The notes under the pieces were generated by a model. The model did no database searches and was not told the origin of the DNA. It saw only the letters and a list, made by a program, of their open reading frames with translations. DNA of 64,000 nt. It comes from Chitinophaga sancti (GTDB lineage: Bacteria > Bacteroidota > Bacteroidia > Chitinophagales > Chitinophagaceae). The position numbers and the translations under genes are program-made. The stretch spans positions 248,001 to 312,000 of the forward strand of contig NZ_CP139247.1 in the NCBI RefSeq assembly GCF_034087045.1, read 5' to 3'. Of the stretch, positions 9,345 through 63,945 are shown piece after piece; positions within the stretch are counted from its first letter, which is position 1; every line of letters starts with the position of its first letter.

Positions 9345-9770
9345 CATGAGCTGGTTAATTCAGCTATTCTGCTCATGAAAATCCCCTTTTTCTGAGCCGA
9401 TTAATTCAGCTATTCAGCTCACGAAATACCCTTTTTCTGAGCCGATTAATTCAGCTATTCGGCTCACGAAACACCCTTTTTCTGAGCCGAATAATTCAGC
9501 TATTCGGCTCACCAAACACCCTTTTTCTGAGCCGATTAATTCAGCTATTCGGCTCACGAAACACCCATTTTTTGAGCCGATTAATTCAGCTATCCGGCTC
9601 ACGAAACACCCATTTTTTGAGCCGATTAATTCAGCTATCCGACTCACGAAACACCCTTTTTCTGAGCCGATTAATTCAGCTATTCGGCTCATGAAATACC
9701 TTTTTTCTGAGCCGATTAATTCAGCTATTCGGCTCACGAAACACCCATTTTTTGAGCCGAATAGCCCTTT
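9345..9770. repeat. Tandem array, 45-bp unit, about nine copies
   Basis: The block ATTCAGC recurs at 9359, 9404, 9449, 9494, 9539, 9584, 9629, 9674 and 9719, a strict 45-bp period. Each unit carries GAGCCGATTAATTCAGC then TATTCGGCTCACG, so GAGCCGA and TCGGCTC form a 7-bp hairpin in every copy. Because 45 is a multiple of three, the minus strand stays open as a 15-residue repeat protein (9414-9776); I do not accept that as a gene. The array lies between the zeta cassette and the receptor operon. Unlike most arrays here, I cannot link its unit to the 3' end of a flanking gene. Confidence 0.95.
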
Positions 9771-9884
9771 TACCAAAAATCCCCCAAACCATTCAATCTA
9801 CCCCCTCCATCCTCCCTACTACCGAAATCTTTTCCCCCTCCCTCCCCATTCTCCCACCTTTACATTCCTAACCAACAAAAACTC

Positions 9885-12266
9885 ATGAAACTAATCAACC
9901 TGCTTTTCTGCCTGCTAGCCATCACTCAATTACACGCCCAACAATTACACGGCACCATCACCGACCCACAAAACCAACCACGCCCTTACGTATTGGTCGT
10001 CCTCGCCACCGATAGCACCTACACCAAAGATGTAATATCAACCATCACTACCGAATCCGGCACCTATTCATTTCAAAACATAAAAGCCGGTCAATACTAC
10101 CTTCGCGCTAACTTCTTAGGCTTAAAAACCTATACCAATAAAGTGACTCTACCAGGAGAACTGAACATCATTATGACCGATTCCTCCTCCCAACTAAACG
10201 AAATCGTCGTAAAAAGCCAAAAACCAACCTTTCAAAAACTCACTGACAAATTCGTCTTCAACGTCGCCAACTCCACCATCACTGCCGGTGGTACCGCCTA
10301 CGACGTACTCACCCACACCCCCTTATTAATCCCCGGTACTAACGGCAATCTCAACATCGCCGGCTTCCCCGCAGGCGCCACCGTCTACATCAATAACCGA
10401 AAATCTTTATTAACAGGAGATGACCTCATGACCTACCTCAAAGGCATGTCTGCCGACAATATCATCAGTGTTGAAGTGATCACCAACCCCTCCGCTAAGT
10501 ACGAAGCAGGGGCCTCCGGTGGCATCATCAATATCTTATTGAAAAAAACAGAAGACGAAGGCTTAAACGGTACCCTGACCTTATCAGACCGTCAAAACAA
10601 ATTCAACGAACAACGCATCTCCGGGTTACTTAACTACAAAAAGAGAAGATACGCCCAACAATTTCAATTAACCGCTACCAACAGCAAAAACTTCATCCAG
10701 TTAAACGCCACCACCCTCTACCCAAAGATAAATGAGACAGAATCACTCAACACCGAAGTGAACTCCACAAACAAAGACATTTATGCCAAAACCGCCATCG
10801 ACTACGAATGCTCTTCCAAAATAAATATCGGCGGCGCCGTTGAATACAAACGCAATACCAATAAAGCCATACAACAAACACTCAACAACATCCAATACCC
10901 CACCTACACCGACTCCTTACTGAACCACGGTAAGGAACCCGGTAACAACAACATTCTCAACAGCAACCTCTATTTCAAATTCAATGACGCTAAAAAAGGT
11001 CGTTCCCTGGATCTCAATGCAGATGGCATTATCTACAACAACAACGATAATAGCGAATTCCTTTCCTATTACAGGAACAAACCATCCGACATCTTCAACG
11101 GCTACAAATCCAATATCAAACAGGAAATCCACAACTACTCCTTCAAAGCCGACTACGCCCAGAAATTCATCTGGAAAACAACGCTGGAAGCCGGTGGTAA
11201 ATACACCTACACCGAAACAAAGAACCCATATAACTTTTATAACTTAGACATCCCCTCCAACGAATACATCTTCAATCCAGGTATCTCAAACTATTTCATC
11301 TACCAGGAAAAGATCATCGCCGCTTACCTGAATTTGCAAAAGAGCTTTACAGAAAAAATATCCCTGAAGGCCGGTGTACGCATGGAATCAACCAGCACCA
11401 CCAACATACAGAAAATCACAAACAAAAACGACTACACCCGCTGGCTTCCATCCGCCATGCTCAACTATGCCATCAACGACAACCACAACCTATCATTTGC
11501 ACTGAAAAGCGATTTTAACAGACCCGCTTTCTGGCAAATGAATCCATTCATGACCTACACCAGCAATAAATCAGGTGTACAAGGCAATCCATTTATCAAA
11601 CCTACTCAAAGCATTCACGCAGAACTCACCTACGTCCACCACCAGCATTATATCTTCATGGCTAGTTATGGCAAAGAGAAAAACCTCTTCCAACAAGTCG
11701 TGACGCTAATACAACCTGACACACTCATCTATTACTGGAACAACTACGGTTTCTCCAAATCCCTTGCACTCACCTCCGTGATCAATAAAACCATTTTAAA
11801 AGATTGCTGGACTGCCAGCATGACCAACGCCCTCGAATGGCGCACCCTCCATGTTACCGCCAATGGCGTAGCATCTGAAAATACATATCCCCTCTACATG
11901 TTGAATATTAACAATAATTTCTCTAATATCGCGCACACAGGCATCGACGCCACCGTGAGCGGAAGTTACTTTAATCAATATGCACAGGCGAATATGCTGA
12001 TCAAATCATTTGGTAATATCAACATCGGTGTGAGTAAGAATTTTCCTAAACCAGCTATAAAAGTGAGTCTCGCAGTAGATGATATATTATACACCAGCTA
12101 TTTCAGATTCCACACACTCCCCAATGACCAAATGATCAACACAGCTGTCAGTAAAAGTAGCACCCGCATGGTACGCGTATCGCTGATGAAAAAATTCGGT
12201 AACAAGAAAATGAAGAAATTTAATTCAAATGATAGCGGCAATCAGCAGGAACAAAACAGGATATAG
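9885..12266 (+). CDS. Outer-membrane beta-barrel receptor (CarboxypepD_reg / plug / TonB-dependent type)
   Basis: The 793-residue protein begins with a signal peptide ending HAQ, then a CarboxypepD regulatory-like domain (about 20-100; LHGTITDPQNQPRPYVLV). A plug domain follows (about 120-220; ISVEVITNPSAKYEAGASGG) and then a large outer-membrane beta-barrel of the PF14905 type. It should bind or import a ligand at the outer membrane with TonB energy. Its stop codon lies 35 bp inside the next gene, and four genes in a row overlap, so ligand binding may be coupled to the kinase/regulator pair behind it. A CACCTTTA box at 9855-9862 may be its -7 element. No SusD partner is present. Confidence 0.88.
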   Translation: MKLINLLFCLLAITQLHAQQLHGTITDPQNQPRPYVLVVLATDSTYTKDVISTITTESGTYSFQNIKAGQYYLRANFLGLKTYTNKVTLPGELNIIMTDSSSQLNEIVVKSQKPTFQKLTDKFVFNVANSTITAGGTAYDVLTHTPLLIPGTNGNLNIAGFPAGATVYINNRKSLLTGDDLMTYLKGMSADNIISVEVITNPSAKYEAGASGGIINILLKKTEDEGLNGTLTLSDRQNKFNEQRISGLLNYKKRRYAQQFQLTATNSKNFIQLNATTLYPKINETESLNTEVNSTNKDIYAKTAIDYECSSKINIGGAVEYKRNTNKAIQQTLNNIQYPTYTDSLLNHGKEPGNNNILNSNLYFKFNDAKKGRSLDLNADGIIYNNNDNSEFLSYYRNKPSDIFNGYKSNIKQEIHNYSFKADYAQKFIWKTTLEAGGKYTYTETKNPYNFYNLDIPSNEYIFNPGISNYFIYQEKIIAAYLNLQKSFTEKISLKAGVRMESTSTTNIQKITNKNDYTRWLPSAMLNYAINDNHNLSFALKSDFNRPAFWQMNPFMTYTSNKSGVQGNPFIKPTQSIHAELTYVHHQHYIFMASYGKEKNLFQQVVTLIQPDTLIYYWNNYGFSKSLALTSVINKTILKDCWTASMTNALEWRTLHVTANGVASENTYPLYMLNINNNFSNIAHTGIDATVSGSYFNQYAQANMLIKSFGNINIGVSKNFPKPAIKVSLAVDDILYTSYFRFHTLPNDQMINTAVSKSSTRMVRVSLMKKFGNKKMKKFNSNDSGNQQEQNRI

Positions 12267-14851: not shown

Positions 14852-14892
14852 TGTTAAACATTTCGTAGAAATCGTCAAGTCTTAGAACGTCG

Positions 14893-14995
14893 GTGCCATT
14901 CAACGCTTTCATTAGTCACTCGGATTATCCTTTCAACACTTTCACCAGTCATTCAGATCACCGATTCAACGCCTTCATCAAAAACTCCGGATACC
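14893..14995. repeat. Three-unit 33-bp tandem repeat spanning a gene's stop codon
   Basis: TTCAACGCTTTC (14899), TTCAACACTTTC (14932) and TTCAACGCCTTC (14965) lie exactly 33 bp apart. The third copy is the coding 3' end (MKALNR and stop) of the aldo/keto reductase on the minus strand, whose stop codon is 14958-14960. The two other copies lie outside the gene, with in-frame stops. This is the shortest example of the gene-end arrays in this window. Confidence 0.85.
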
Positions 14996-15947
14996 TCTTC
15001 CCTGCTGCAATTCCCGCCGGCATAATCGCCTCTATACTTTGCAAATCCTCTTGCGTAAGCTGCACTTGCTCTGCTGCAATATTTTCTTCCAGTTTATGTA
15101 TCCGCTTCGTCCCCGGAATAGCAATAATATGCTCCCCCTGCGCCAACACCCATGCCAGTGCTAATTGTGTAGTTGTACACCCTTTCTGTGCAGCCAATAC
15201 CTTAACTTGCTCCACCAGTTCAAGATTCTTATAAAAATTCTCCCCCTGAAAACGCGGCATATTTGGCCGGTTATCTTTCAGATCCCCAGGTGATTTTATA
15301 TCACCAGTCAAAAATCCCCTGCTCAAAGGCGAATAAGCAACAATACCAATCCCCAATTCACGGGTAACAGGCAGCACTTCTGCTTCAATCTCCCTACTCC
15401 AAAGAGAATATTCAATTTGTAATGCTGTAATAGGCGCTACAGCCGCCGCTTTCCTGATGGTAGACGCAGATGCTTCAGAAAGACCTATGTACCGGATAAC
15501 GCCTTTATCCACCATATCCGCCAGTGCACCCACCGTATCTTCAATAGGTACATTCGGATCTACCCGACCAGGAGTATACAGGTCGATGTAATCCGTTTTT
15601 AATCTTTGTAAACTGTAAAGAATAGCATTCTTTAAATAATCAGGATGGGCATTGACAGGGCCAAAACCAAATCCTTTATTCGCTGCCGGGGCGAACATTT
15701 GCCCTGTCTTGACAGAAAGGAAAGCTTTGTCCCGCTTGCCTTTGATCGCTTTGCCGATCAATTCTTCATTGTGACCGGTACGGTAATAATCAGCGGTGTC
15801 TAAAAAGTTATGTCCCAGCTCAAGTGCTCTTTCAATCACTTTAATTGATTCCTGGTCATCTGCTGCGCCGTAGGCGCCTGATAAACTCATACATCCAAGA
15901 CCGATGGATGATACGAGTGGTCCGTTTGTTCCAAGTTTTCTATTCAT
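14958..15947 (-). CDS. Aldo/keto reductase
   Basis: The 329-residue NADPH-dependent oxidoreductase has the family TIM-barrel signatures. The N-terminus reads MNRKLGTNGPLVSSIGLGCM, followed by the Asp-Tyr-Lys-His region (NFLDTADYYRTGHNEELIGK), LQRLKTDYIDLYTPGRVD, IEYSLWSREIEAEVL and the cofactor-binding IIAIPGTKR. The motif 'HNEELIGKAIKG' and the 'IGLSEAS' segment place it with the plant auxin-induced/YajO-like aldo/keto reductases. The usual catalytic Tyr is present in ADYY. It lies downstream of an AraC-type regulator on the same strand, which may control it. Its 3' end is duplicated in the 33-bp array next to it. Substrate unknown. Confidence 0.93.
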   Translation of the reverse strand: MNRKLGTNGPLVSSIGLGCMSLSGAYGAADDQESIKVIERALELGHNFLDTADYYRTGHNEELIGKAIKGKRDKAFLSVKTGQMFAPAANKGFGFGPVNAHPDYLKNAILYSLQRLKTDYIDLYTPGRVDPNVPIEDTVGALADMVDKGVIRYIGLSEASASTIRKAAAVAPITALQIEYSLWSREIEAEVLPVTRELGIGIVAYSPLSRGFLTGDIKSPGDLKDNRPNMPRFQGENFYKNLELVEQVKVLAAQKGCTTTQLALAWVLAQGEHIIAIPGTKRIHKLEENIAAEQVQLTQEDLQSIEAIMPAGIAAGKRYPEFLMKALNR

Positions 15948-15998
15948 GGCACAAATTTCTGTAGAACAACTTAAGAGGAGCCGGACAAAACGTATTAG

Positions 15999-16175
15999 TT
16001 CCCTGACAAATCCTGAATAAAGAAGAAAGATAGGAACTCCCGGAACAGCCTCTCAAAAATCCTGTATAAAAGTGATAACGGTCTTAACCCAGCAGCCCAT
16101 CAAAGTTCCCTGACCAAAAAAGGATAGTACCTACCGGAACAGCCCCCTCACAAATCCTGAATAAACATTGCGATC
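15999..16175. repeat. About four degenerate 48-bp units spanning the stop codon of the AraC gene
   Basis: TCCTGAATAA at 16011, TCCTGTATAA at 16060 and TCCTGAATAA at 16155 mark copies 49 and 95 bp apart, with a weaker copy near 16108. CCGGAACAGCC recurs at about 16040 and 16135. The rightmost copy encodes FIQDL and the stop of the AraC gene at 16148; the others lie between this gene and the aldo/keto reductase promoter. Confidence 0.8.
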
Positions 16176-16990
16176 GTCTGACCAGTGACCTTTTTAAATA
16201 AGCGGGAGAAGTATTCGGGATCATTAAACCCCAGGTCATAAGCCAATTCCTTGATAGAAGAGTTTCTTGCATAAAACAACCTACGCTTTGCCTCCAGTAT
16301 GAGCCGGTTGGTAATAAACTCTTTCGGACTCAAGCCTGAATATTGCTTTACTATGCTATACAAACTGTTTGTATTCAAAGCAAGTTCTTCCGCAATCTCA
16401 ATGATGCTGGGATGATCAGTGAGATTGTTCTCTATCAATAATTTAAAATTGATGTACTTAGCAAGCTTGTCATCCGCAGGCTGCTTATCCACAGCGAAAT
16501 AAGCGGAATTAATTTCTGTTAATAAACTATTGAGGTGCGCCAGTATAAGGTCTGGATCCGTATCCATCGTACTGAGCAATCCGAGTAGCATTTCAAAGAT
16601 AGATTTCAGCCTGGCAGCAGCTGGAGGGGTAAACTTGATTTTCTGGTTGTTGAGAGGATTGATGAGGAAAGGGTATTGTCTTGGTAAGAGCGACAGACTA
16701 CTTTCCTCAAAGCCTAGTTTGAAAAAGTTAATCCCTTTTTTAGAATCAGGTACATGGTGGATTTGATGCGGTAACACAAAGAGGAGCTCGTTTGCCTGTA
16801 TATCGAAATGCTGTAAGTCCACGCCATGGCGGGTAATGCCTTCCAGCACAAAGAGGAACAGGTAATGTGTTTTGCGATGAGCAGGAGAATAGGTCCCCAA
16901 CATTTCTGGTGGAAGGCTCCCGAAAGTAGGGGAGATAATACGGATGGGGAGTTTGTTGTTTTGTGTATGTAGATGAAGGATGGAATCCAT
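16148..16990 (-). CDS. AraC-family transcriptional regulator
   Basis: The 280-residue protein has an N-terminal cupin-like sensor half (RKTHYLFLFVLEGITRHGVD, then ELLFVLPHQIHHVPDS) and a C-terminal double helix-turn-helix. The first HTH is around IIEIAEELALNTNSLYSIVK and the second around SIKELAYDLGFNDPEYFSRL, followed by FKKVTGQ. This is the standard AraC/XylS layout and length. It lies upstream of the aldo/keto reductase, separated by the 48-bp array, and may regulate that gene. The inducer is unknown. Confidence 0.93.
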   Translation of the reverse strand: MDSILHLHTQNNKLPIRIISPTFGSLPPEMLGTYSPAHRKTHYLFLFVLEGITRHGVDLQHFDIQANELLFVLPHQIHHVPDSKKGINFFKLGFEESSLSLLPRQYPFLINPLNNQKIKFTPPAAARLKSIFEMLLGLLSTMDTDPDLILAHLNSLLTEINSAYFAVDKQPADDKLAKYINFKLLIENNLTDHPSIIEIAEELALNTNSLYSIVKQYSGLSPKEFITNRLILEAKRRLFYARNSSIKELAYDLGFNDPEYFSRLFKKVTGQTIAMFIQDL

Positions 16991-18050: not shown

Positions 18051-18059
18051 CTTGTATCA

Positions 18060-29106: not shown

Positions 29107-29436
29107 CAACGACAAGCCCAGGCAATAAACAGGCAACATGACTACGGAATTAACACTAGTAGTGTCTAAGGAACTAATTGTAACAAGCCAAAGCAATTAA
29201 CACTAGCTGGACTAAGCAATTAACACTGGCAGCGCTAAGAAATTAACCGGAACAAGCCAAAGCAATTAACACTAACAGGGCTAAGAATTAACACTAGCTG
29301 GACTAAGAAATTAACCGGAACAAGCCAAAGCCATTAACACTAACAGGGCTAAGAATTAACACTAGCAGCGCTAAGAAATTAACCGGAACAAGCCCAGGCA
29401 ATTAACACTAACAGGGCTAAGCAATTAGCCCTCACT
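29092..29436. repeat. Compound tandem array (about 23-bp units) joining two convergent genes
   Basis: Units of 22-24 bp all start AATTAAC and alternate between CCGGAACAAGCC, ACTAACAGGGCTAAG and ACTAGCTGGACTAAG versions, giving a higher-order period near 68 bp. The left end is the coding 3' end of the DUF1345 gene: GAGGAATTAACAACGACAAG (stop codon inside) against AAGAAATTAACCGGAACAAG further in. The right end (CAATTAGCCCT) touches the stop codon of the convergent gene at 29432-29434. Confidence 0.9.
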
Positions 29437-30391: not shown

Positions 30392-30438
30392 AAAATATAT
30401 TTATAGATGAAATAATCATCCCCGGCAGGGGGTATTAG

Positions 30439-30570
30439 AAACCTTCAGGATACCTTTAGAAAACCTTTAAGGAATCTTCAGAAAACCTTCAGGATACCTT
30501 TAAAAAGCCTTTAAGAAATCTTTAAGGAATCTTCAGAAAACCTTTTGGCAACCTTCAAAAAATCATCAGG
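30439..30570. repeat. Twelve 11-bp units in strict phase
   Basis: The motif CCTTCA/CCTTTA/TCTTCA recurs at 30442, 30453, 30464, 30475, 30486, 30497, 30508, 30519, 30530, 30541, 30552 and 30563, exactly 11 bp apart each time. On the minus strand the unit reads TGAAGGTTTTC or TAAAGGTATCC. The array lies 50 bp upstream of the HTTM gene start and 33 bp past the stop of 30603-31082. The period is close to one DNA helical turn. Confidence 0.9.
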
Positions 30571-40179: not shown

Positions 40180-40210
40180 CCTCGCCTTTTGCCTGTTGGC
40201 AGGGGCGAGG
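40180..40210 (+). terminator. Terminator after the pectate lyase gene
   Basis: CCTCGCC (40180-40186) pairs with GGCGAGG (40204-40210), with GCC/GGC inside and loop TGTT. A T-rich stretch follows, after which the 60-bp array begins. Confidence 0.8.
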
Positions 40211-40625
40211 TTTACTTTACGTATTGAAAGGATTTCATTTACGGTCGATAAGCCTTCGCAGGTGGGGGTACTTTACATATTGAAAGGATTTCTATTCCCC
40301 TCAGTAAGCCCTCGCAGGTGGAAGGTTTTATTTTATGCATTGAAAGGATTTCTTTCCCCCTCTGTAAGTCTTCGCAAGTGGAGGTTTTGTTTTATGCATT
40401 GAAAGGATTTCTTTCCCCCTCTGTAAGCCCTCGCAGGTGGAGGTTTTGTTTTTATGCATTGAAAGGATTTCTTTCCCCCTCTGTAAGCCCTCGCAGGTGG
40501 AGGTTTTGTTTTTATGCATTGAAAGGATTTCTTCCCCCCTCTGTAAGTCTTCGCAAGTGGAGGTTTCTATTTTACATATTGAAACAATTCCACCTCCCCA
40601 TAAGTCAGTTTTCGCAACCTGCCGC
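40211..40625. repeat. Tandem array, 60-bp unit, about seven copies, entering a gene's 3' end
   Basis: GAAAGGATTT recurs at 40226, 40282, 40342, 40401, 40461 and 40521 (56-60 bp apart). Each unit carries GCATTGAAAGGATTTC and CCTCGCAGGTGGAGG. The seventh unit (from about 40570) is the coding 3' end of the minus-strand gene: ACATATTGAAACAATTCC and TTTTCGCAACC match the unit in order, and the stop codon at 40567-40569 is within it. Reading frames across the array are products of the 60-bp period. Confidence 0.93.
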
Positions 40626-40881
40626 TATAAGGTGCGGATACAATTGTAATAGAATATTCGATCGTTTCCCATTGATAATCATCAGTATCTTTCTTCCTAA
40701 TAGCCTTATCACCGATCCGTTCCCAGGAAAACTTGTCCTGGTGAGTCAGTGTTTGTTTATCCCAGGAATAATAAGTGCCACTCCCATCGGCTTTAAATTC
40801 ATAAGCCCATCCCCAAATGCCATGTAAACCACTCCCATCGTCCAGGTCATTTTCCCAGGTACCAAGAATCTCATCTACCAT
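40567..40881 (-). CDS. Small hypothetical protein, 104 aa
   Basis: The protein begins MVDEILGTWENDLDDGSG and is beta-rich with many aromatic residues (GIWGWAYEFKADGSGTYYSW). The pattern LxGTWxxD...YxFxxDGxGTYYxW resembles small lipocalin-like beta-barrels of about 100 residues. There is no signal peptide. The last 15 or so codons form the terminal unit of the 60-bp array. Function unknown. Confidence 0.7.
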   Translation of the reverse strand: MVDEILGTWENDLDDGSGLHGIWGWAYEFKADGSGTYYSWDKQTLTHQDKFSWERIGDKAIRKKDTDDYQWETIEYSITIVSAPYSGRLRKLTYGEVELFQYVK

Positions 40882-49302: not shown

Positions 49303-49605
49303 ATGACTAAGGATCGGAAATCACCACATATACTAAATACCTCTACGAATTTGTTAGGCTTTTGCCTGATCGTATTGACATCTATCAAGGTAGCGCGGTT
49401 CAACCACGTCACGGTGATTGATGATGTAACAGGTGTAGCAGCTATATTGCTGATGGCCAGCTGCCTGTTTTCCTTCCTATCCCTGCGTTCTTCCAGGCCA
49501 CAGTGGAGTGAAAAACTGGAAACGGCAGCTGATTATATCTTTCTGGCCGCTCTGGTGTGCATCAGTATCACCATTGTTTTTGTATCCTTTAATTTATTGA
49601 CGTAA
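49303..49605 (+). CDS. Small membrane protein, 100 aa
   Basis: The protein has three hydrophobic segments (about 16-28, TNLLGFCLIVLTSIKV; 42-60, GVAAILLMASCLFSFLSLRS; 78-97, FLAALVCISITIVFVSFNLL) with short charged links (RSSRPQWSEKLETAAD). No named family is recognised, though small three-helix proteins of this look are widespread in Bacteroidota. Its last codons (FNLLT and stop) form the first unit of the 61-bp array. Confidence 0.72.
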   Translation: MTKDRKSPHILNTSTNLLGFCLIVLTSIKVARFNHVTVIDDVTGVAAILLMASCLFSFLSLRSSRPQWSEKLETAADYIFLAALVCISITIVFVSFNLLT

Positions 49606-50300
49606 ACTAGGCTTCTTTATTGGGATACATCATTATAAAATTTGCAGCCTTAATTTGTTGACGTAAACTAGTCTTCTTTATTGGGATACACCATTATAAA
49701 ATTTGCAGCCTTAATTTTTTGACGTACACTAACCTTCTTTATTGGGATACACCATTATAAAATTTGCAACCTTAATTTGTTGACGTACACTAACCTTCTT
49801 TATTGGGATACACCATTATAAAATTTGCATCCTTAATTTGTTGACGTACACTAACCTTCTTTATTGGGATACACCATTATAAAATTTGCATCCTTAATTT
49901 TTTGACGTAAACTAGTTTTCTTTATTGGGATACACCATCATAAATTTGCAGCCTTAATTGATTGAAGTAAACTAGTCTTCTTTATTGGGATACACCATTA
50001 TAAAATTTGCAGCCTTAATTTTGTTGACGTAAACCAACCTTCTTTATTGGGATACACCATTATAAAATTTGCAGCCTTAATTTTGTTGACGTAAACCAAC
50101 CTTCTTTATTGGGATACACCATTATAAAATTTGCAGCCTTAATTTTGTTGACGTAAACCAACCTTCTTTATTGGGATACACCATTATAAAATTTGCAGCC
50201 TTAATTTGTTGACGTAAACTAGTTTTCTTTATTAGTACCCACCTACATAAATTGGCCATCCAGTAATTTATTGCCCTAAACTACTCTTCCTTATTGGCAT
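49588..50300. repeat. Tandem array, 61-bp unit, 12 copies, joining the 3' ends of two convergent genes
   Basis: The block CGTA recurs at 49601, 49662, 49723, 49784, 49845, 49906, 49966, 50028, 50090, 50152 and 50213, with a twelfth related copy at 50274. Unit landmarks are TTGACGTAAACTAG, TTTATTGGGATACACC and TATAAAATTTGCAGCC. The first unit contains the plus gene's stop TAA (49603-49605); the last contains the minus gene's stop (50281-50283). In a single unit these positions are one or two bases apart, as if two genes with almost touching stop codons had been separated by amplification of the junction. Confidence 0.95.
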
Positions 50301-51222
50301 CCATGATTTCATCATTTTCCACCTTCAACATAAAATAAGGGAATGCGGATTTCTTCTTTTGCAACAACACGACAAATGGTTTATCAAAAATAAGATTGGG
50401 TGGACGCTTCACCTCTCCTGAATCCAATGCAGCCGCAGCTACGGTCAATTCTGCTGAATCAACTACTTTCGCGCCATCCTGATCCAATGTAAAAGAGGTC
50501 TTCTGACGGGCAGTTTTTATTTTATAGGGCTGTCCTTTTGCCTTAAAATCGATTCCTTCCAGTTCCTTAAAGTGCTCTTCCTCCATAAATTTCAATACCG
50601 GTATCTGCAATGAAGCATACTCCGTAATCTTTGTACCCTTCCTGATAGCCCCCTGAACCTGCTGCAGGATGACATGTAGGTTAGCACCCTTATTAAATCC
50701 CTTTGCCAATATCATATCGGAAGACTTATCCTTTGAATCTAAATTCATCACAAAATGATCTTCATCTCTATAATAAATAAGGTGCGCTTCTCCAATAATT
50801 TCCGGATCATAATCTATCATACCAAAGGCTTTCACTGGCTTACCATTAAAATTAAATGGCTGATGCAGTGGTTGCATTGGCACTTCAAACCCTAAATCTT
50901 TTTGAAAATTAACCAGTAAAGTAATTTGCTCCCCATCTATCCTCACATCCTTTTTATACTCCTTAGGCCCTAACAAATCCCCTGATAACGGACTATCATT
51001 CATCCACTTCACCGCCTTCGCCTTATTATTAATTGGCGCACCTACCTGTTTCCTCATTTCATTCCATGCCAATGTAAAACTTGCCGAAAACGCAATATTC
51101 TTACTCACATCCACCGGCGTCAGCATATTGGGAACAATCTGTGATCTCGAATAATATCTTGTTTTTTTACAGGCGATCATCAGCACCATGGCCGCCAGCA
51201 AATAGGGATATAAAGTTTTCAT
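50281..51222 (-). CDS. Serpin-like lipoprotein
   Basis: The 313-residue protein has a lipoprotein signal (MKTLYPYLLAAMVLMIACKK, lipid Cys18). The C-terminal part resembles serpins: SAELTVAAAALDSGEVKRPP recalls the small-residue hinge before the reactive loop, and NLIFDKPFVVLLQKKKSAFP matches the conserved FxADRPFxFLI strand. The N-terminal half contains NIAFSASFTLAWNEMRKQVG, like the serpin helix A region. It is shorter than a usual serpin (about 370). If inhibitory it would act on proteases at the cell surface; a non-inhibitory role is equally possible. Confidence 0.65.
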   Translation of the reverse strand: MKTLYPYLLAAMVLMIACKKTRYYSRSQIVPNMLTPVDVSKNIAFSASFTLAWNEMRKQVGAPINNKAKAVKWMNDSPLSGDLLGPKEYKKDVRIDGEQITLLVNFQKDLGFEVPMQPLHQPFNFNGKPVKAFGMIDYDPEIIGEAHLIYYRDEDHFVMNLDSKDKSSDMILAKGFNKGANLHVILQQVQGAIRKGTKITEYASLQIPVLKFMEEEHFKELEGIDFKAKGQPYKIKTARQKTSFTLDQDGAKVVDSAELTVAAAALDSGEVKRPPNLIFDKPFVVLLQKKKSAFPYFMLKVENDEIMDANKEE

Positions 51223-52284: not shown

Positions 52285-53043
52285 ATGAAACGGATCATTT
52301 CAATCGTGCTTTTTACCATGCTGACCGCCTTTGCCAGTGCACAAACCTATATTTGCCCACCCTGCAATGGCCCCAGCTGCGACACCCTCACCTTCACCAA
52401 TCCCGGCAACTGTCCCCACTGTGGCATGAAGTTGATTAAAAAAGGAGATGAAATCAAGAGACTAAACGTCTGCTTCTACCTCTATGACGGCGTTGAAGTC
52501 CTGGACTTTGCAGGCCCACTGGAAGTATTTTCCTATGCAGGCTGCAATATCTATATCGTATCCAAGACTACAGACCCGCTTCATGCCCAGGGTGTACTCA
52601 GGGTATTACCTACCTACAGTATTGAAAATGCCCCTCCTGCTGATATCTTTGTCACCTTTGGAGGCAATGATGATGTAGCGGCTAATGACCCGGAAGTGAT
52701 TAAATGGATTCAATCCCGGATTCCTAATACCAAATACTTTATGTCCGTATGTACCGGTGCCTTTATCCTTGGCAAAGCCGGTATCCTGGATCATAAAACA
52801 GTGACCACTTTCCACAACAGCATTGAAAACCTGCGAAAAGCATTGCCTAACAGCACCGTATTGGCTGATAAACGTTTTGTAGAGGATGGAAATGTATTAA
52901 CAACCGCAGGAATTTCTGCTGGTATAGATGGGGCGCTGCACCTGGTAGAGAAATTACGCGGACATGATGCGGCGGTACAGATTGCGAAACATATGGAATA
53001 TGATAAATGGGTGCCAGGCGAAGGACTGGTTGTAAAGCAATAA
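52285..53043 (+). CDS. Exported DJ-1/PfpI protein with N-terminal metal-binding motif
   Basis: I start at ATG 52285, where a signal peptide begins (MKRIISIVLFTMLTAFASAQ). The mature N-terminus has TYICPPCNGPSCDTLTF and GNCPHCGMKLIKKGD, two CxxC pairs like the heavy-metal-binding domain found before copper transporters. A DJ-1/PfpI domain follows (YLYDGVEVLDFAGPLEVF, MSVCTGAFILGKAGILDHKT), with the elbow cysteine in SVCTGAF. Its AraC-type neighbours on either side carry the same domain without export signals. A periplasmic glyoxalase/metal-linked role is possible; the specific function is unknown. Confidence 0.85.
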   Translation: MKRIISIVLFTMLTAFASAQTYICPPCNGPSCDTLTFTNPGNCPHCGMKLIKKGDEIKRLNVCFYLYDGVEVLDFAGPLEVFSYAGCNIYIVSKTTDPLHAQGVLRVLPTYSIENAPPADIFVTFGGNDDVAANDPEVIKWIQSRIPNTKYFMSVCTGAFILGKAGILDHKTVTTFHNSIENLRKALPNSTVLADKRFVEDGNVLTTAGISAGIDGALHLVEKLRGHDAAVQIAKHMEYDKWVPGEGLVVKQ

Positions 53044-53142
53044 CAATTAAAACCTGGCTGTAAAGCAATAAAATTAGAATCTGGTTTCCTAAAACAACAA
53101 AAATCAAGATTATATCAAGGTCTTCCTTGCGCCATCAAGAAC

Positions 53143-53192: not shown

Positions 53193-53354
53193 TGCGATGG
53201 AAACATCATTCAGATACCTGAAGGAATCAACTATTCATTTAAGCGATACCCAGGAGGTTCATTTATTTTTAATACAACCTTTTACTTTATACAAAGACTG
53301 CATTCGGTATACTGTATATTACAAACGTCACCATTACCCTACAACGGCCTACCT

Positions 53355-53825
53355 ATACTGCATTCGCAGCTATTATCCTACTGCCTGCTTTATTCTACAA
53401 TAGCCGCCATTATCCTACTGCCTGCTTTATTCTGCATTCGCAGCTATTATCCTACTGCCTGCTTTATTCTACATTCGCAGCTATTATCCTACCGCCTGCT
53501 TTATTCTGCATTCGCAGCTATTATCTTACCGCCTGCTTTATTCTGCATTCGCAGCCATTATCCTACTGCCTGCTTTATTCTACATTCGCAGCCATTATCC
53601 TACCGCCTGCTTTATTCTACATTCGCAGCTATTATCTTACCGCCTGCTTTATTCTGCATTCGCAGCCATTATCCTACTGCCTGCTTTATTCTACAATAGC
53701 CGCTAGTATCCGACTGCCTGCTTTATTCTACAATAGCCGCCATTATCCGACTACATGCTTTATTCTACAATCGTCTCTTGATTCTGCTACTGCTGCCATT
53801 ACACTGCAATCGCCTCCTTATTATA
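53355..53825. repeat. Tandem array, 37-bp unit, 12 copies plus a coding copy
   Basis: The anchor CATTCGCAGC (or CAATAGCCGC) recurs at 53361, 53398, 53435, 53472, 53509, 53546, 53583, 53620, 53657, 53694, 53731 and 53768, strictly 37 bp apart. A related copy (CAATCGCCTCC) at 53807 is the coding 3' end of the minus-strand GlxA gene, whose stop codon is 53799-53801. Each unit also has TATCCTACTGCCTGCTTTAT. On the plus strand a weak reading frame (53170-53403) crosses the first copies; I reject it. Confidence 0.93.
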
Positions 53826-54782
53826 TTTATTCCGATACTCCACCGGCGATAACCCCGTCTTCCTCTTAAATACAGTTCTAAACGCCTTATTATCCGCATA
53901 CCCCACCTCACACATCACCTCATTGATATTTTTACGGCTGGTTTCAAACCCTTTCTTAGCAGCTTCTATCTTCACCCGTTGAATATATTCTGAAACCGTA
54001 TTGCTGGTCGCCTTCTTAAATCTCCTTTCAAAACTCCTTCTCCCCATCGTACAAAGCGACGCCAATTGGTCAACCGTAATCCGCTCCTGGAAATTTTGCT
54101 CAATAAAATCCTGTGCCCGCTTAATATCATCATCCTTATGATCCCGCTGTCCGCGGAACATGATAAATGGTGACTGACTAAACCTATCAATTTCAATAGC
54201 AAAAAATTTTGCACAGAAGATTGCCATTTCCCTATCAGTATATTTTTCTACCAGGTACAGGAGTAAATTCCAGAAAGAATTTGCCCCTCCACTGGAATAA
54301 ATCCCGTTCTCATCGGTAATAATCCTGTCAGATACCATTTCCACATCAGGAAACATTTTTCTGAACAGGTGCTCAGACTGCCAGTGAGTACTGCATTTCT
54401 TACCATCCAGCAAACCAGTGGCTGCCAACAAAAATGCGCCTACACATAGACTGGCAACTTCCGCTCCACGTTCATACTGTGCCCTGATCCAGGGGAAGAA
54501 ATCGCTGTTGGCGGCAATGACCTTGTCCATTTCCCCATTTACCGCAGGGATAATGATCAGGTCAGTAGTGAAGTTATCCTGTATACTCAGATCCGGGGTT
54601 ACTTTACAAAATCCATCGTATACCATAGCATCGTGGGTCAAGCCTACCAGTTGGATAGTGAATAATGGATCTTCTCCCCGGTCGGTCAGGAAGCGATTCA
54701 CATTAAAGAACATTTTGTGTGTGCCTTCAATACAGCCCAGGGACGCGGCACCTCTGGGGATTAATATAGATATGTGTTTCAT
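53799..54782 (-). CDS. GlxA-family transcriptional regulator (DJ-1/PfpI plus AraC HTH)
   Basis: The 327-residue protein has the same two domains as 51262-52182 but is clearly a different subfamily. The PfpI part has VASLCVGAFLLAATGLLDGK, with the elbow cysteine, and the HTH part has ITVDQLASLCTMGRRSFERR, then INEVMCEVGYADNKAFRTVF. The C-terminus (EYRNKYNKEAIAV) is the template-like unit of the 37-bp array. Upstream lies another array (65-bp units) in its promoter side. No obvious target gene nearby other than the PfpI cluster. Confidence 0.9.
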   Translation of the reverse strand: MKHISILIPRGAASLGCIEGTHKMFFNVNRFLTDRGEDPLFTIQLVGLTHDAMVYDGFCKVTPDLSIQDNFTTDLIIIPAVNGEMDKVIAANSDFFPWIRAQYERGAEVASLCVGAFLLAATGLLDGKKCSTHWQSEHLFRKMFPDVEMVSDRIITDENGIYSSGGANSFWNLLLYLVEKYTDREMAIFCAKFFAIEIDRFSQSPFIMFRGQRDHKDDDIKRAQDFIEQNFQERITVDQLASLCTMGRRSFERRFKKATSNTVSEYIQRVKIEAAKKGFETSRKNINEVMCEVGYADNKAFRTVFKRKTGLSPVEYRNKYNKEAIAV

Positions 54783-54849: not shown

Positions 54850-55295
54850 ACCAGGTTGAATGCATTAGTAAAATGCCATTCAATGACCAGGATAAATCCT
54901 CTTTTACCCATCTTTGCAAGTTAATTGCATTGGCAAAATGCCGCCCAATGACCCCGACAAATCCTCTTTCACCCATCTTTGCAAGTTAATTGCATTGGCA
55001 AAATGCCACCCAATAACCAGAACAAATCCTCTTTTACCCATCTTTGCAAGTTAATTGCATTAGTAAAATGCCACCCAATGACCAGGACGAATCCTCTTTC
55101 ACCCACCTTTGCAAATTAATTGCATTGGCAAAATGCCACCCAATGACCCCAACAAATCCTCTTTTACCCATCTTTGCAAATTAATCGCATTGGCAAATGC
55201 CACCCAATAACCCGGACAAATCCTCTTTTACCCACCTTTGCAAAATGACACTCAATAATTCTCTTTTCAACATGCCCATCAATGCCCCATACTAA
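54850..55295. repeat. Tandem array, 65-bp unit, six copies
   Basis: CTTTGCAA recurs at 54912, 54977, 55042, 55107, 55172 and 55236 (64-65 bp). Unit landmarks are ACCCATCTTTGCAA and GCATTGGCAAAATGCC, the second being an inverted repeat (GCATT/AATGC). The right end runs into the coding 3' end of the minus-strand gene at 55279-55749 with weaker identity (about 15 of 21 positions around its stop codon). Each unit also holds CATCTTTG or CACCTTTG, one base from the TAnnTTTG promoter element. Confidence 0.9.
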
Positions 55296-55749
55296 TCACC
55301 CTCGTTGCCTTCCATTGCCCATCCTTCAATCGCCATACCTGCACAAATTTCATCAACCCTACCTCTTCCTTTCCATTCTCCTTATGAATAAACCGATGCT
55401 CCCCCACCTCAATCGCCCCAAACCCCGGCATAGGATACACCTCCAATGAACCCTCTACCAACTCCCTCCTCAACCCACTCGCAGCATTCCGCTCAAACAT
55501 CGACTTAAAATTCTTCATAGTAGTCCCATAATCACTCACCCCACCACCATCATTATAAAACTCCACATCTTCCGCAAATACCTTTTCAAGTACCGGCATA
55601 TCATGCGTATTAAATGCATTGAACATCACACTGTCCATATGTGCAATCGTATCATACAATGCCTTGTCTTTAGGAACGTATCTGGACTTTTGGGCGAAGG
55701 TTAACTGGCAAAGAACCATGCACAGCAACAATAGAATCTTATTTTTCAT
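55279..55749 (-). CDS. Secreted NTF2/SnoaL-like protein (DUF4440 type)
   Basis: The 156-residue protein has a signal peptide (ending TFAQ) and a cone-shaped NTF2-like domain: helix SVMFNAFNTHDMPVLEKVFA, then strand EDVEFYNDGGGVSDYGTTMK and the final strands MKFVQVWRLKDGQWKATRVIS. This is the DUF4440/SnoaL pattern. Such proteins bind small ligands or act as isomerase-like accessory proteins. It lies after the GH81 gene on the same strand but is separated by a terminator. Confidence 0.88.
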   Translation of the reverse strand: MKNKILLLLCMVLCQLTFAQKSRYVPKDKALYDTIAHMDSVMFNAFNTHDMPVLEKVFAEDVEFYNDGGGVSDYGTTMKNFKSMFERNAASGLRRELVEGSLEVYPMPGFGAIEVGEHRFIHKENGKEEVGLMKFVQVWRLKDGQWKATRVISMGH

Positions 55750-55760
55750 ATCCTCAATTT

Positions 55761-55799
55761 AAAAAAAAGCCGGCATCTATACAAGAGGCCGGCTTTTTT
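55761..55799 (-). terminator. Terminator after the GH81 gene
   Basis: AAAAAAGCCGGC pairs with GCCGGCTTTTTT across a 13-nt loop, between the GH81 stop and the NTF2-like gene start. Confidence 0.85.
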
Positions 55800-55812
55800 C
55801 ACACATTTATTC

Positions 55813-58800
55813 TTATAGCTTTACAAACTTGCTCGTCTTAGCACCCATCCGAATTAAATACACCCCAGGTGTCAACCCGGTAACAGATACAGTATTCACA
55901 CCCGTAGTCACTTTACCCGCCTGTATCACATTCCCCTTCAAATCGGTAATAGTATAATACCCACTGGCAGTCGCACTCACATACACCTGATCCTGCGCAG
56001 GATTAGGATATACAAGTGATGTTGTAGTCGCCTTAGCAGCACTTACAACACTTGCCGTAGTCGTCGCATCGCTCGCCGTACCACAAACTTCAAATTCATA
56101 AATAGAATAACCATAAGGCGTATTCCTTTGCACACCATACATCCTGAGATACCGATAATCTTTACCGATATTATCAATCAAATCTGTACGATTGCCTGTA
56201 GTAGTATTTATATAATGCCCGATCGTATCCCAGGTAAGCGTATCCGTTTTAGCACCTAAGATATAGTACTCTTTCGCATTCGCGACCTCCCACGTAAGCA
56301 TGATTTTATTAACATGCGACACCACACCCATATCTACCGTGATCCACTGCGGATCGGTAAACTGACTCTCCCAACGACTTCCCTGGTTCCCATCAATCGC
56401 CGCAGCTGCTGTACCAGAAGAAGCTGTAGCTGATGCAGGCACCAGGTTGTAACAACCCGTAGGCGTTGACCCTGAATCAGGTAATATCGGATACGTCAAC
56501 AATGTCCTTGCAGGCACTGAAAAGGAAGCCACCTCACCGCCACTGGCATCATACACCTTACAGGTACTGGCACTTGCAGAAGGGTTATAAGCCACCGCAT
56601 GACTGAAAGTACCATTCTTTTCAAACACACTGCTACTTGGGAAATTCGTATGATATTTAAAAGAGAAATCACCCAGATTTTGATGTGCATGTGTATAATA
56701 ATAAGTCATACCAGACACCTCGTAATCCATAATGTAGTCGGTATCTGTTACTGGCAACAATAAATTCTTCGCCATAAACGCCGCTGCATATGTAGGATCG
56801 AATATTTGTTTCCAGCCTAAAGCCACATGCGCCCAGTCATCCCCAAAATCAGTTTCATCTTTGTGCCCATCTACTGCAAGTGTTTCACTCATCATATTCG
56901 CATATTCCTGTTGTGCCCATACAGTATCCCTGGCGGCAAATTTAAACCCTGGATTGACAGGCAGGTATTGAATAGCATGAATATGCATAGGACTGGCACT
57001 GAAATAAGTCCCATAAGCAAACCCCTGGTTAGAAAGGATGCCTACTACAGAATGATTATACGTGGAAGGCAGGTTACGTTTCTTCCAGTCAAACCAGTAC
57101 TCAAGTGCAGCATACGTTTCACTACTATACCCAAAGGCAGCAGCTGCCCGCATAGCAGGGTCATTCAGTTCATCAGCAAGCAGGAACAGACCAATCCATG
57201 ATTGAATCGCCTCTGAAGAAGATTCCTGGTTATTGCCTGAAGAAGAGCTGGTACCACCGGCATAACTATGGCCGATCCATGGATCGAAGGTACGCAGGAA
57301 TGGCAGTGTGGTATCAGTTCTATCCCAGTTCGCATATTGCTTAGCAATCAGTTTGATCATGTCTCCGTATTCACTCAGGAAGTCAGGATCGACCATACCA
57401 TATAATGCCGCTGCTAATGTAAAATACCCATAATGAAAATGGTTATCAGTAAAGTAAGCAGAAGTATATGATTCATTGAAACCTACCAGGGCACCCCATC
57501 GATCATATTTAGCAAAGAACTTTTCTGTCTCACCAGGTGTATAGATGAGCCAGTTCACGAGTGCTTCTTTTGTTTTTGCTTTTAAGGATGCATAGGCCTG
57601 ATGGTTCAGTTCCTTTGCCATCACCGTATACTTTGCAAAGTTGAGGATGTCTTTACCTCCCCAGTAGGTATCCCCGCCGTAGTCCTTCTTTTTAGAGAAC
57701 TGCGTCAACAGGTTATACATGTCACTGGCATTGTAAGGTGCAGCATCGCCGTCACGCTTATAGGGTGCATTGAAGTTAGGCAGTATACCTCCGAAGTCAT
57801 AAGTGAAAGACCAGCTATTGCCGATAGAAGTTTTCATCGTACCGCGTGGACTTATATAACTATAGGCACTGAAAGTAACATTGTGTGTGGCATCGTCATA
57901 GAGGTGGGGCAGGAAACCTTGAATAGTAGGACCGGCGGCGGCACCTTTCAGGTTGGTAGTGGTAAGGTTCCAGTTCACAACGACCTTGCCTGCGCTGGTA
58001 TTATAATCATAAGATACGGTTGAATTGATTGGCTTGTTAAAAGCATATTGTTCATACGTATTTAAATCGGTAGCTGCCTGTAAAGCAGAGACTACAAAAT
58101 ATGCATGCCCGTTATTCGTATTCAGAACCAGTTTTTCAGCCTGGTTACCGTCAGAAGCCCATCGGGTACCCAAGTTACCATCGTTTACATTCCCAGCTAC
58201 AAAATTTGCTTCTGTTGAAGAGACAGTAACTTTCTTGTTCTGAGAGAGTAATGTGGCATTGTTGAATACCTGCATTTCCCAAAGAGAGTAGGCATAAATA
58301 GTACCTCTTTCTCTGAGAACGATTTGCACATAGCGGGCAGTGGTATCTTTAAAAGACAAAGTGTCGGTACCACCATCACCACTGATCACAGCAGCTACGG
58401 TAGCCCAGGTAGTGGTATCATTAGATACCTGGATACTGTAGCCAGACGCGTAAGCGGTTTCCCAGCTTAACCTGACAGCGTTGATGTTTTGAGAGGTACC
58501 TAAGTCAATTCTTACGAATTGTTGTCCCTGAATGGCGGCGGTAGTATTGCCATCGAGGTGGATACCTAAATAACGACCATCTGTTTTGATGACAAAAGAT
58601 TTATTAGTGGGGAGCTCCAGGGCATCGCCGGTGCTGGTGAGGTAGGAGCCGCCTTTTTCGAGCGCGATTTCCGGATTGATACCTTGAGTTTCAAACCAGA
58701 AAAACGGGATGCCGTGATACATGGTGACATCCATGTTTTTGTTGTGTGTACTATCTGGCAGAGACATCACGACACCCCAATCGGACCAGTCTTTGGCAAT

Positions 58801-59193
58801 GGCTTTTTCGGGTGCATAACCATCTGCTTTGATGCTCATGTATCCACCATATTCGAGGTTAGAACCATCGGCGACAAAGCTGTTGGCGAAATAAAGTTTG
58901 GTACCAAAGTTTTCCGGATCGGCGGAGAGTGGGTACGCCCAGAGCATACCGGCATACTGAGATACGATCAGGTCAGTCCACCAATCGTTGGTAGGAATGC
59001 CCTGATGTTTTCTATTTTCGGCTACGTAAATGGGCGCAGTGTACACGAATGCCTGTAAGGAGGCGTCGAGTTCAGTGGCCGGAGGAAAAGAGGCGTAGCT
59101 ACCTGCACCGACAGATACAGGTGATTGGGCATGTAGTTGCCATGTGCTGATAGATAGCACGACTGCTAACAGGTAAAGGTTTTTCATGGTCAT
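55813..59193 (-). CDS. Secreted endo-beta-1,3-glucanase, GH81, with discoidin-like and T9SS domains
   Basis: The 1126-residue protein should hydrolyse beta-1,3-glucan. It has a signal peptide (ending LHAQ) and GH81 N-terminal blocks (IPTNDWWTDLIVSQYAG). The catalytic region has DNHFHYGYF (Asp583) and NNQESSSEAIQSW (Glu657, Glu661). A discoidin-like segment is inserted at about 215-350 in unusual order. A second complete discoidin-like domain (about 925-1045) and a type IX secretion C-terminus (LVYPNPAQDQVYVS to KTSKFVKL) follow. Fungal or algal glucan is the likely target. A single gene with terminator; the first or third codon may be the true start (59193 or 59187). Confidence 0.92.
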   Translation of the reverse strand: MTMKNLYLLAVVLSISTWQLHAQSPVSVGAGSYASFPPATELDASLQAFVYTAPIYVAENRKHQGIPTNDWWTDLIVSQYAGMLWAYPLSADPENFGTKLYFANSFVADGSNLEYGGYMSIKADGYAPEKAIAKDWSDWGVVMSLPDSTHNKNMDVTMYHGIPFFWFETQGINPEIALEKGGSYLTSTGDALELPTNKSFVIKTDGRYLGIHLDGNTTAAIQGQQFVRIDLGTSQNINAVRLSWETAYASGYSIQVSNDTTTWATVAAVISGDGGTDTLSFKDTTARYVQIVLRERGTIYAYSLWEMQVFNNATLLSQNKKVTVSSTEANFVAGNVNDGNLGTRWASDGNQAEKLVLNTNNGHAYFVVSALQAATDLNTYEQYAFNKPINSTVSYDYNTSAGKVVVNWNLTTTNLKGAAAGPTIQGFLPHLYDDATHNVTFSAYSYISPRGTMKTSIGNSWSFTYDFGGILPNFNAPYKRDGDAAPYNASDMYNLLTQFSKKKDYGGDTYWGGKDILNFAKYTVMAKELNHQAYASLKAKTKEALVNWLIYTPGETEKFFAKYDRWGALVGFNESYTSAYFTDNHFHYGYFTLAAALYGMVDPDFLSEYGDMIKLIAKQYANWDRTDTTLPFLRTFDPWIGHSYAGGTSSSSGNNQESSSEAIQSWIGLFLLADELNDPAMRAAAAFGYSSETYAALEYWFDWKKRNLPSTYNHSVVGILSNQGFAYGTYFSASPMHIHAIQYLPVNPGFKFAARDTVWAQQEYANMMSETLAVDGHKDETDFGDDWAHVALGWKQIFDPTYAAAFMAKNLLLPVTDTDYIMDYEVSGMTYYYTHAHQNLGDFSFKYHTNFPSSSVFEKNGTFSHAVAYNPSASASTCKVYDASGGEVASFSVPARTLLTYPILPDSGSTPTGCYNLVPASATASSGTAAAAIDGNQGSRWESQFTDPQWITVDMGVVSHVNKIMLTWEVANAKEYYILGAKTDTLTWDTIGHYINTTTGNRTDLIDNIGKDYRYLRMYGVQRNTPYGYSIYEFEVCGTASDATTTASVVSAAKATTTSLVYPNPAQDQVYVSATASGYYTITDLKGNVIQAGKVTTGVNTVSVTGLTPGVYLIRMGAKTSKFVKL

Positions 59194-59348
59194 TCTGAGT
59201 TTTTATGGATATGTCTAATTAATGGAATGCGATCATGGTTTTCGAGGGAATAAAATTACTAAATATATGGAGGGGAAATATGATTAAAATCAGTACCGGG
59301 GAAGGTGTGGCTAGTCCCGGTACGATTCACTATTGAACTGATGTGGGT

Positions 59349-60416: not shown

Positions 60417-60441
60417 GGGAGAAATGTACAAATATTCTTTG

Positions 60442-60879
60442 TTATACTCTCATATAATCGCCCTGCCAATCCACAACTGCACGCTTAATCTGGTCAGGGG
60501 GGAGGTTTTCGGCAACGGCTCTTTTCACCAGGTCAGGCAATTCTCCATCAGATGCGAACCTGAGGGCCAGGATCTGACCCAGGGAAAGATTCTTTTCTAA
60601 TAGCTCAAACCGCTGGCCGGTGAGGGTGAAATATCTGAATCTTACTTCTAATCTGACAATCCTATCCTGGGTTGTAAGGGCGTAATGCTGTCTGAGCATG
60701 AAGCCGAGCCAACCGATGAGGAGTAATAGGAGGGTAATGAATATCCATTCCCATGATGCATCCGGATGTTTAATGGCGAAGAAGATACTGCATATAATAC
60801 CTACTAAAAGGACAGGGTAGAATACGAAGTGATGAGGTGGGTAGTACCGGATGTGGTTTTGATAGTTTTGTTTTTTCAT
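60442..60879 (-). CDS. DUF6526-like membrane protein
   Basis: The 145-residue protein has an N-terminal segment MKKQNYQNHIRYYPPHHFVF, two membrane helices (about 18-35 and 43-62) and a soluble C-terminal part with ALTTQDRIVRLEVRFRYFTL and LGQILALRFASDGELPDL. These blocks are those I associate with DUF6526, a Bacteroidota family of unknown function. It precedes the saccharopine-dehydrogenase-like gene by 25 bp and may be co-transcribed with it. Confidence 0.8.
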   Translation of the reverse strand: MKKQNYQNHIRYYPPHHFVFYPVLLVGIICSIFFAIKHPDASWEWIFITLLLLLIGWLGFMLRQHYALTTQDRIVRLEVRFRYFTLTGQRFELLEKNLSLGQILALRFASDGELPDLVKRAVAENLPPDQIKRAVVDWQGDYMRV

Positions 60880-61002
60880 GTGGTAAAAATAGAAAAGTCC
60901 TCTATTGAAGAGGACAATCTAATAAAATAAAATTATAATTCTTACTGCTGAATAGCCATGAATTTCCTTAAAGCTCCGTTATTGGACAGGACATCATTCA
61001 AC

Positions 61003-61800: not shown

Positions 61801-61929
61801 AAGTTACAATTAAATTTCGGCAGGAATTTCACTTCCTGCCGGTCATTCTTGTTCATTATTTCAAGCGTTATTCTGATCTGTTCATTCTCTGAACATAGCG
61901 ATCAGCCGTACTTATTGCTTCAATATCTC

Positions 61930-63348: not shown

Positions 63349-63367
63349 AATTGATATTTTGATAGAT

Positions 63368-63375
63368 CAAAGGTA
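63368..63375 (-). promoter_or_regulatory. -7 element of the aldehyde dehydrogenase gene
   Basis: On the minus strand TACCTTTG is an exact match to TAnnTTTG and ends 19 nt before the ATG at 63348. No -33 TTG is clear. Confidence 0.55.
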
Positions 63376-63504
63376 GGGAGAGAAGGGGTCACGCTGTTTT
63401 GTTCTAAAGCTCAAATTACTTTGTTATAAGGGTCAGGTTACATGGTACAATAAATTAAAGTTGCACTGCCAAAAAGGATAGGATAGGATTAACTTGCTTT
63501 AATG

Positions 63505-63945
63505 GATCAGCTTACATTTCTGCAAAGGATCTGCTTACCATTCTGCAAAAAATCAACTTACCTTCCTGCAAAGGATCGATTACCTTCCTGCAAAGGATCA
63601 GCTTACCTTCTGCAAAAAATCAACTTACCTTCCTGCAAAGGATCTGCTTACTTGCTGCAAAGAATCGATTACCTTCCTGCAAAGGATCAGCTTACCTTCT
63701 GCAAAAAATCAACTTACCTCCCTGCAAAGAATCTGCTTACCTTCCTGCAAAGAATCTGCTTACTTGCTGCAAAGAATCTGCTTACCTTCCTGCAAAGGAT
63801 CTGCTTACCTTCCTGCAAAGAATCTGCTTACCTTCCTGCAAAGAATCTGCTTACTTGCTGCAAAGAATCTGCTTACCTTCCTGCAAAGAATCGATTACCA
63901 TAGCTTTAATGGAATGATTACCCTGCTGCAAACAATCTGCTTACC
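63505..63945. repeat. Tandem array, 23-bp unit, about 19 copies
   Basis: The unit CTGCTTACCTTCCTGCAAAG plus AAT recurs with a 23-bp period (for example 63790, 63813 and 63836); variants have CGATTACC, TTGCTGC or CTGCAAAAAATCAAC. The right end reaches the stop codon (63941-63943, TTA) of the partial minus-strand gene, where GTAGGGTAAGCAGATT matches the unit GAAGGTAAGCAGATT. The 23-bp period is not a multiple of three, so frames over the array are chance. Confidence 0.93.

Follow-up and report, generated by a model that had tools for sequence, protein, structure and literature searches.

Intergenic spacers of the Chitinophaga sancti chromosome carry tandem arrays of mutually unrelated units that lie mostly after genes and frequently include a stop codon. 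We analysed a window of 64,000 nucleotides (bases 248001-312000 of the 8.32 Mb single-contig genome, here G000) together with related genomes. The arrays and their link to gene 3′ ends are real and general and are not due to chance, and the arrays are very probably ordinary intergenic minisatellites that are born by slippage and tolerated at gene 3′ ends. An earlier sequence-only reading of the window had described ten unrelated arrays, eight of which ended in the 3′ coding end of a neighbouring gene, and had proposed that gene 3′ ends are repeatedly copied outward. On the best reading of the present results, the observation is real and the mechanism is an ordinary one filtered by selection, with the regional rate of array formation unexplained.

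Arrays were called with Tandem Repeats Finder (TRF), and simple gene calls were made for this analysis. TRF called nine of the ten window arrays (Table 1), and the array at 16.0 kb, which is too degenerate for a call, had a self-alignment score of 55.5 against a maximum of 32.5 in 200 shuffles. Thirty dinucleotide-shuffled windows yielded no array scoring 90 or more, the highest score being 54. The units proved essentially unrelated, with a mean over 210 unit pairs from the 252-kb region of 12.9 compared with 12.6 after shuffling (best pair, 25 vs 21), and units of different loci have no sequence in common of the kind that marks a dispersed family such as the mycobacterial interspersed repetitive units (MIRU). 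The claim of ten unrelated arrays was thus borne out, nine of them by TRF and the tenth by comparison with shuffles.

In the best gene-end test, the actual edge copies, taken after array limits had been moved out manually as far as the edges of the spacer, were compared with 996 coding-sequence (CDS) 3′ ends from an own-genome sample. Seven of the 15 array-facing 3′ ends matched at p<0.03, where 0.45 were expected. Three others gave the larger values listed in Table 1 and the remaining five gave 0.77 to 0.96, while none of the five 5′ ends in the window fell below 0.05 (lowest 0.079). The 53.4 kb match depended on the setting and weakened when TRF's own edges and 600 controls were used. A cruder test of consensus units against 400 controls gave strong matches at 14.9, 16.0 and 49.6 kb, p=0.022 at 40.2 kb, p=0.072 at 29.1 kb, and 0.24, 0.30 and 0.41 at 53.4, 54.9 and 63.5 kb, respectively. 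In the best gene-end test, six of the eight arrays said to end in a gene 3′ end therefore do so (14.9, 16.0, 29.1, 40.2, 49.6 and 53.4 kb), the one at 54.9 kb is borderline and the one at 63.5 kb fails; the ranking of the fits into strong and weak was about right. A further gene-end case, a 28-bp repeat at the stop codon ending at 53043, had been overlooked.

The same pattern was observed beyond the window. Among 96 arrays scoring 100 or more in four Chitinophaga genomes, with arrays shared by sisters counted in each, 47 of 110 3′ ends matched their own array at p<0.03 and 41 were overlapped by the array edge, compared with 7 and 6, respectively, of 82 5′ ends. For G000 by itself, the matches were 27 of 56 3′ ends vs 4 of 40 5′ ends. 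The excess of unit-to-CDS-end identity is not peculiar to the window. These counts show that the gene-end pattern is real and not a product of chance. Across 61 stretches of the own genome (1.264 Mb, window included), 51 arrays had a score of at least 120, of which 38 lay in spacers; an array was present in 12 of 117 spacers between convergent genes, in 24 of 602 tandem spacers and in 2 of 139 divergent ones.

The preponderance of 3′ over 5′ matches favours a dedicated process that copies gene 3′ ends outward, as had been proposed, yet three lines of evidence make such a process highly unlikely. The first is a random-placement null, in which one unit of the observed length was placed at random on the estimated ancestral spacer; the 12 G014 arrays common with G000 were omitted, leaving 84 arrays, 80 of them usable in the main run. 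Array edges overlapped 31 of 87 3′ ends, where 27.3 were expected, or 32.5 if 5′ overlaps were excluded, and 5 of 73 5′ ends, where 13.8 were expected. None of nine variants of the null (0, 40 or 80 bp kept free at 5′ ends, the own genome alone, or scores of 120 or more; 1 to 9 considered arrays lost per variant with no placement left) gave a 3′ excess. The mildest gave 35 of 91 overlaps against 36.5 expected (P=0.73), and stricter settings gave a 3′ deficit. The asymmetry between the two ends is a lack at 5′ ends and not an excess at 3′ ends, because the 3′ overlaps fit random placement while the 5′ overlaps fall short of it. The second line of evidence comes from arrays of three or more units that match a gene end (28 edges, sisters pooled). 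Likeness to the array was 96.1% for inner pieces vs 88.8% for the coding copy (inner higher in 20 edges, equal in 3; Wilcoxon p=0.001). Since the coding copy resembles the array less than an inner piece does, the present coding end is not a standing template from which the inner units are copied.

The third line of evidence is the birth of arrays as seen in sister genomes, in which minisatellites can be followed from birth through growth to loss as in a natural time series. Among named records, those nearest to one window protein are [Flexibacter] sp. ATCC 35208 (99% identity) and Chitinophaga silvisoli (96%). Close genomes with the region in common are G014 (97% for another window protein), G050 and G031 (91%). 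Where one species has an array, the orthologous spacer of the next often lacks one or has one of another period. G000 was compared with G014 for arrays scoring 100 or more. Thirteen arrays were single-copy in the sister, not counting arrays 209508 and 137790 (no usable single-copy match), loci with an array in the sister and loci lacking an ortholog pair. The matching single-copy segment spanned a gene 3′ end in five births and a 5′ end in two, and it was wholly intergenic in six, which argues against outward copying of gene ends. In three of the 13, the sister carries a direct repeat of 12, 9 or 7 bp whose spacing is within one base of the period, and no other spacing within 40 bp of the period gives a repeat as long. 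Eleven arrays had the same period (within 1 bp) in both genomes and eight of these differed by 0.5 unit or more, a variation in unit number that the sequence-only reading had thought worth checking. The sister comparison and the four-genome counts uphold its view that arrays have formed many times over and that they are associated with gene 3′ ends.

The 49.6 kb locus illustrates such changes. Its unit occurs 10.5 times in the window and 4.4 times in the draft assembly L023; G014 has a 124-bp segment without a called array, and there the spacer is 64 bp and a 12-bp direct repeat is spaced 62 bp. Array sizes differ between L023 and G014, which are 97% identical over this stretch, although the draft status of L023 calls for caution here. 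Periods ranged from 11 to 100 bp in the 96 arrays (filter 10-110 bp) and showed no phasing at 3, 10.5, 11 or 11.5 bp (Rayleigh p 0.33 to 0.88); a few arrays outside this set had longer periods of up to 327 bp.

We infer that slippage is the molecular step and that selection causes the avoidance of 5′ ends. Replication slippage (short-homology illegitimate recombination) between direct repeats several bases long that are present by chance would first give a head-to-tail duplication of a segment of ~10 to 100 bp, and the duplicate would subsequently grow, shrink and be homogenised via further slippage or unequal recombination. Selection would then set where arrays survive. A duplication running from the last codons past the stop would leave the protein unchanged, because the first copy retains the stop codon, whereas one near a start or promoter would disturb expression and be lost. 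As the former are silent and the latter are lost, arrays would accumulate downstream of genes, and chance alone would often place a stop codon within a unit whose length is large compared with that of its spacer. On this account the arrays would be a clean example of how selection alone makes random duplications resemble a gene-end-copying machine, duplication of a stop being silent and duplication of a start not.

Several points weigh against this account. A clear flanking direct repeat was found in only 3 of the 13 births and eight gave no signal; the other two lay in the top 7% of spacings, one with its repeat outside the matched segment. Drift since birth could have erased such repeats. 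In addition, the null relies on an ancestral spacer length that had to be estimated from the array as it is today and treats the founder as a single unit, and the underlying gene calls are simple ones of our own. Finally, slippage and selection leave unexplained a regional array rate that is ~5 to 7.5 times higher per tandem or convergent spacer than in the rest of the sample.

This array-rich region, which comprises the window and the following 80 kb and is termed the hotspot here, had arrays in 8 of 22 convergent spacers, in 10 of 58 tandem ones and in 0 of 27 divergent ones, compared with 4 of 83, 14 of 382 and 2 of 110, respectively, in the other sampled own stretches (spacers of 30 bp or more). 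The 80 kb after the window, which the sequence-only reader had not chosen, contains 12 non-coding arrays; the 80 kb before it (G000 168001-248000) and the matching 80 kb of G014 (880001-960000), which adjoin the hotspot and are mostly lower in GC content (20-kb means 0.34-0.41), contain none scoring 120 or more. In the stretches fetched, the distance of the main cluster downstream of dnaA is ~257-382 kb in G000, ~175-310 kb in G014 and ~240-355 kb in G050. Elsewhere, a stretch at 8.2 Mb of the own genome has five arrays, spaced own-genome stretches have 21 non-coding arrays in 1.02 Mb, and sister stretches away from the hotspot have none in 80 kb (G014) and one in 80 kb (G050). Seven other Chitinophaga genomes have two non-coding arrays in 800 kb; this total includes 160 kb around orthologous genes in G026, G007 and G047 with no array, of which only the part matching window ~20-49 kb aligns. 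Outside the 800-kb sample, a 3.9 kb locus of G035 has two arrays, and one or two were found in each of the 13 kb loci from C. barathri and from three other Bacteroidota records (L033, L038 and L039).

These distributions raise the possibility, which we consider doubtful, of a regional or clade-specific mutator that increases tandem duplication in the dnaA-linked region and leaves the 3′ pattern to selection; it would be compatible with slippage. In its favour are the array-richer convergent and tandem spacers of the hotspot, the similar distance of the main clusters from dnaA in the three complete genomes, and the scarcity of arrays both in the other Chitinophaga and in sister stretches off the hotspot. 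However, divergent spacers show no rise in the hotspot, the aligned DNA of G026, G007 and G047 corresponds to a part of the window with just three arrays scoring 120 or more, its reader had chosen the window on account of its arrays, and the 8.2 Mb stretch has five arrays as well. No candidate enzyme emerged, either: mutS is present in 11 of 11 genomes, sbcD occurs in two array-rich genomes but is missing from two, and loss of neither gene correlates with the arrays. Extreme strand skew was likewise rejected as a cause, as GC skew at third codon positions (GC3 skew) is strong in the G000 and G014 hotspot and near zero in much of the array-rich G031. GC content had no monotone link with arrays over 60 own stretches (Spearman -0.003); of 33 non-coding arrays, 27 fell in the 23 stretches at 0.40-0.44, 6 in the 27 above and 0 in the 10 below 0.40. 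It may tentatively be imagined that, in one clade, the segment ~0.17 to 0.38 Mb from dnaA is a minisatellite nursery, in which a position-bound, clade-specific process such as altered replication or repair yields ~5 to 7.5 times more duplications per tandem or convergent spacer than elsewhere, with sharp borders against low-GC islands. If the hotspot is borne out, it would offer a workable setting in which to study why rates of tandem duplication vary along a bacterial chromosome.

Skew itself varied among and within the genomes. GC3 skew on the + strand is negative on both sides of dnaA (G000 168001-420000, -0.1 to -0.5 in most 10-kb bins, and G000 8200001-8220000, -0.43); it is near zero in most of the sampled genome. 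Negative skew also occurs in G014, is mixed in G050, and gives way to near-zero or positive values in much of G031.

Nothing found in the sequences would support the roles in termination, insulation of convergent genes or C-terminal variation that had been suggested. Array interiors fold little better than shuffles, with a mean fold z of -0.53 and 8% below -2 over the 110 array-facing 3′ ends. Divergent spacers gave a mean of -0.31 (n=80), whereas ordinary DNA downstream of genes gave -2.23 with 45% below -2 (n=110; arrays vs ordinary downstream DNA, p=2.6e-6). The units accordingly lack the stable hairpins of REP/BIME or terminator arrays, and no Rfam family matched in the window at gathering thresholds. 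That the arrays are transcription terminators or insulators selected at gene ends would agree with their position mostly after genes and with their greater frequency per convergent than per tandem spacer inside the hotspot, a difference that hardly exists outside it. We regard this as very unlikely, given that interiors fold like the divergent-spacer controls and unlike ordinary downstream DNA, and that orthologous spacers vary freely in having any array. Per gene 3′ end, the rates inside the hotspot are about equal (8 of 44 convergent vs 10 of 58 tandem), because a convergent spacer has two such ends. A source of C-terminal protein variants is suggested by units that contain stop codons and gene-end coding sequence, but this seems barely credible: in 22 gene-array comparisons between the two sisters G000 and G014, in which five genes were viewed from either side, the C-terminal 25 residues were unchanged apart from point changes. 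The exception was a single gene that contains a coding repeat (193531-193878, numbered within the 252-kb region).

In their head-to-tail units of ~10 to 100 bp and in copy numbers that differ among close relatives, the arrays are minisatellites, also known as variable-number tandem repeats (VNTR). They differ from the usual ones in the high regional density of unrelated units and the clear bias towards gene 3′ ends, stop codons included. The MIRU of mycobacteria are also tandem spacer units that overlap stop codons; these form one related family across loci, unlike the units in Chitinophaga. Tandem-repeat units in Ehrlichia ruminantium, a bacterium of another phylum and lifestyle, are reportedly ~150 bp long, whereas most units here are 11 to 100 bp. 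Active expansion and contraction of non-coding tandem repeats in that species is described in one report (PMC10710844), and slippage between short repeats, leading to small variable segments in bacterial genomes, in another (PMC2884548). Intergenic tandem repeats also occur in planctomycetes, again a different phylum, and the excerpt available for these is silent on overlap with gene ends. Among the matches listed, open-access titles and abstract openings contained no earlier description of gene-end arrays in Chitinophaga.

Table 1 Tandem arrays of the window, their neighbouring genes and gene-end matches (3′ ends labelled by array position in kb; p from the best gene-end test unless stated)
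Array	Position	Setting and gene-end relation	p
45-bp x 9.3	9342..9760	between two + genes; no gene-end match	3′ end 0.96; 5′ end 0.079
33-bp x 2.5	14896..14977	last copy is the 3′ end of aldo/keto reductase gene 14958-15947 (-), Pfam PF00248	14.9R 0.002
~48 bp, degenerate	15950..16160	last copy is the 3′ end of AraC-type gene 16148-16990 (-)	16.0R 0.002
68-bp (~3 x 23) x 4.1	29147..29427	convergent genes; outlying copy is the 3′ end of DUF1345 gene ending 29106 (+)	29.1L 0.010
11/44-bp	30438..30561	between two - genes; no gene-end match	30.4R 0.34
60-bp x 6.4	40199..40574	convergent genes; overlaps 3′ end of gene 40567-40881 (-)	40.2R 0.027
61-bp x 10.5	49589..50233	convergent genes; matches both 3′ ends, 49303-49605 (+) and 50281-51222 (-)	49.6L 0.002; 49.6R 0.004
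28-bp x 2.1	53026..53084	straddles stop codon 53041-53043 of a + gene; TRF call; same form in G014 and L023	
37-bp x 11.4	53354..53773	end copy resembles 3′ end of gene 53799-54782 (-)	53.4R 0.017; 0.062 with TRF edges
65-bp x 5.9	54861..55243	between two - genes; weak likeness to 3′ end of 55279-55749 (-)	54.9R 0.094
23-bp x 17.5	63506..63945	edge overlaps stop of - gene starting 63941 by 5 bp, no wider match	63.5R 0.25

The genes flanking the arrays are ordinary and unrelated to one another, and include those for a response regulator, an aldo/keto reductase, AraC regulators, a TonB-type outer-membrane protein, a glycoside hydrolase 81, an aldehyde dehydrogenase and others. Upstream of the array at 9.3 kb lies a zeta-toxin-like kinase gene (window 7926-8858). 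G014, L023 and G050 lack the glycoside hydrolase family 81 gene and a neighbour (window 54889-59295) at the corresponding site, whereas G031 has them. Two sampled stretches were unusual in other respects. L007 (G000:C1:2000001-2020000) is a 20-kb stretch of 22% GC, compared with 38-47% in most sampled stretches. In L166 (G050:C1:500001-520000), bases 31-10966 consist of a 285-bp repeat in ~38 copies, nearly 11 kb in all, located inside a called gene that would encode a very large repetitive protein.

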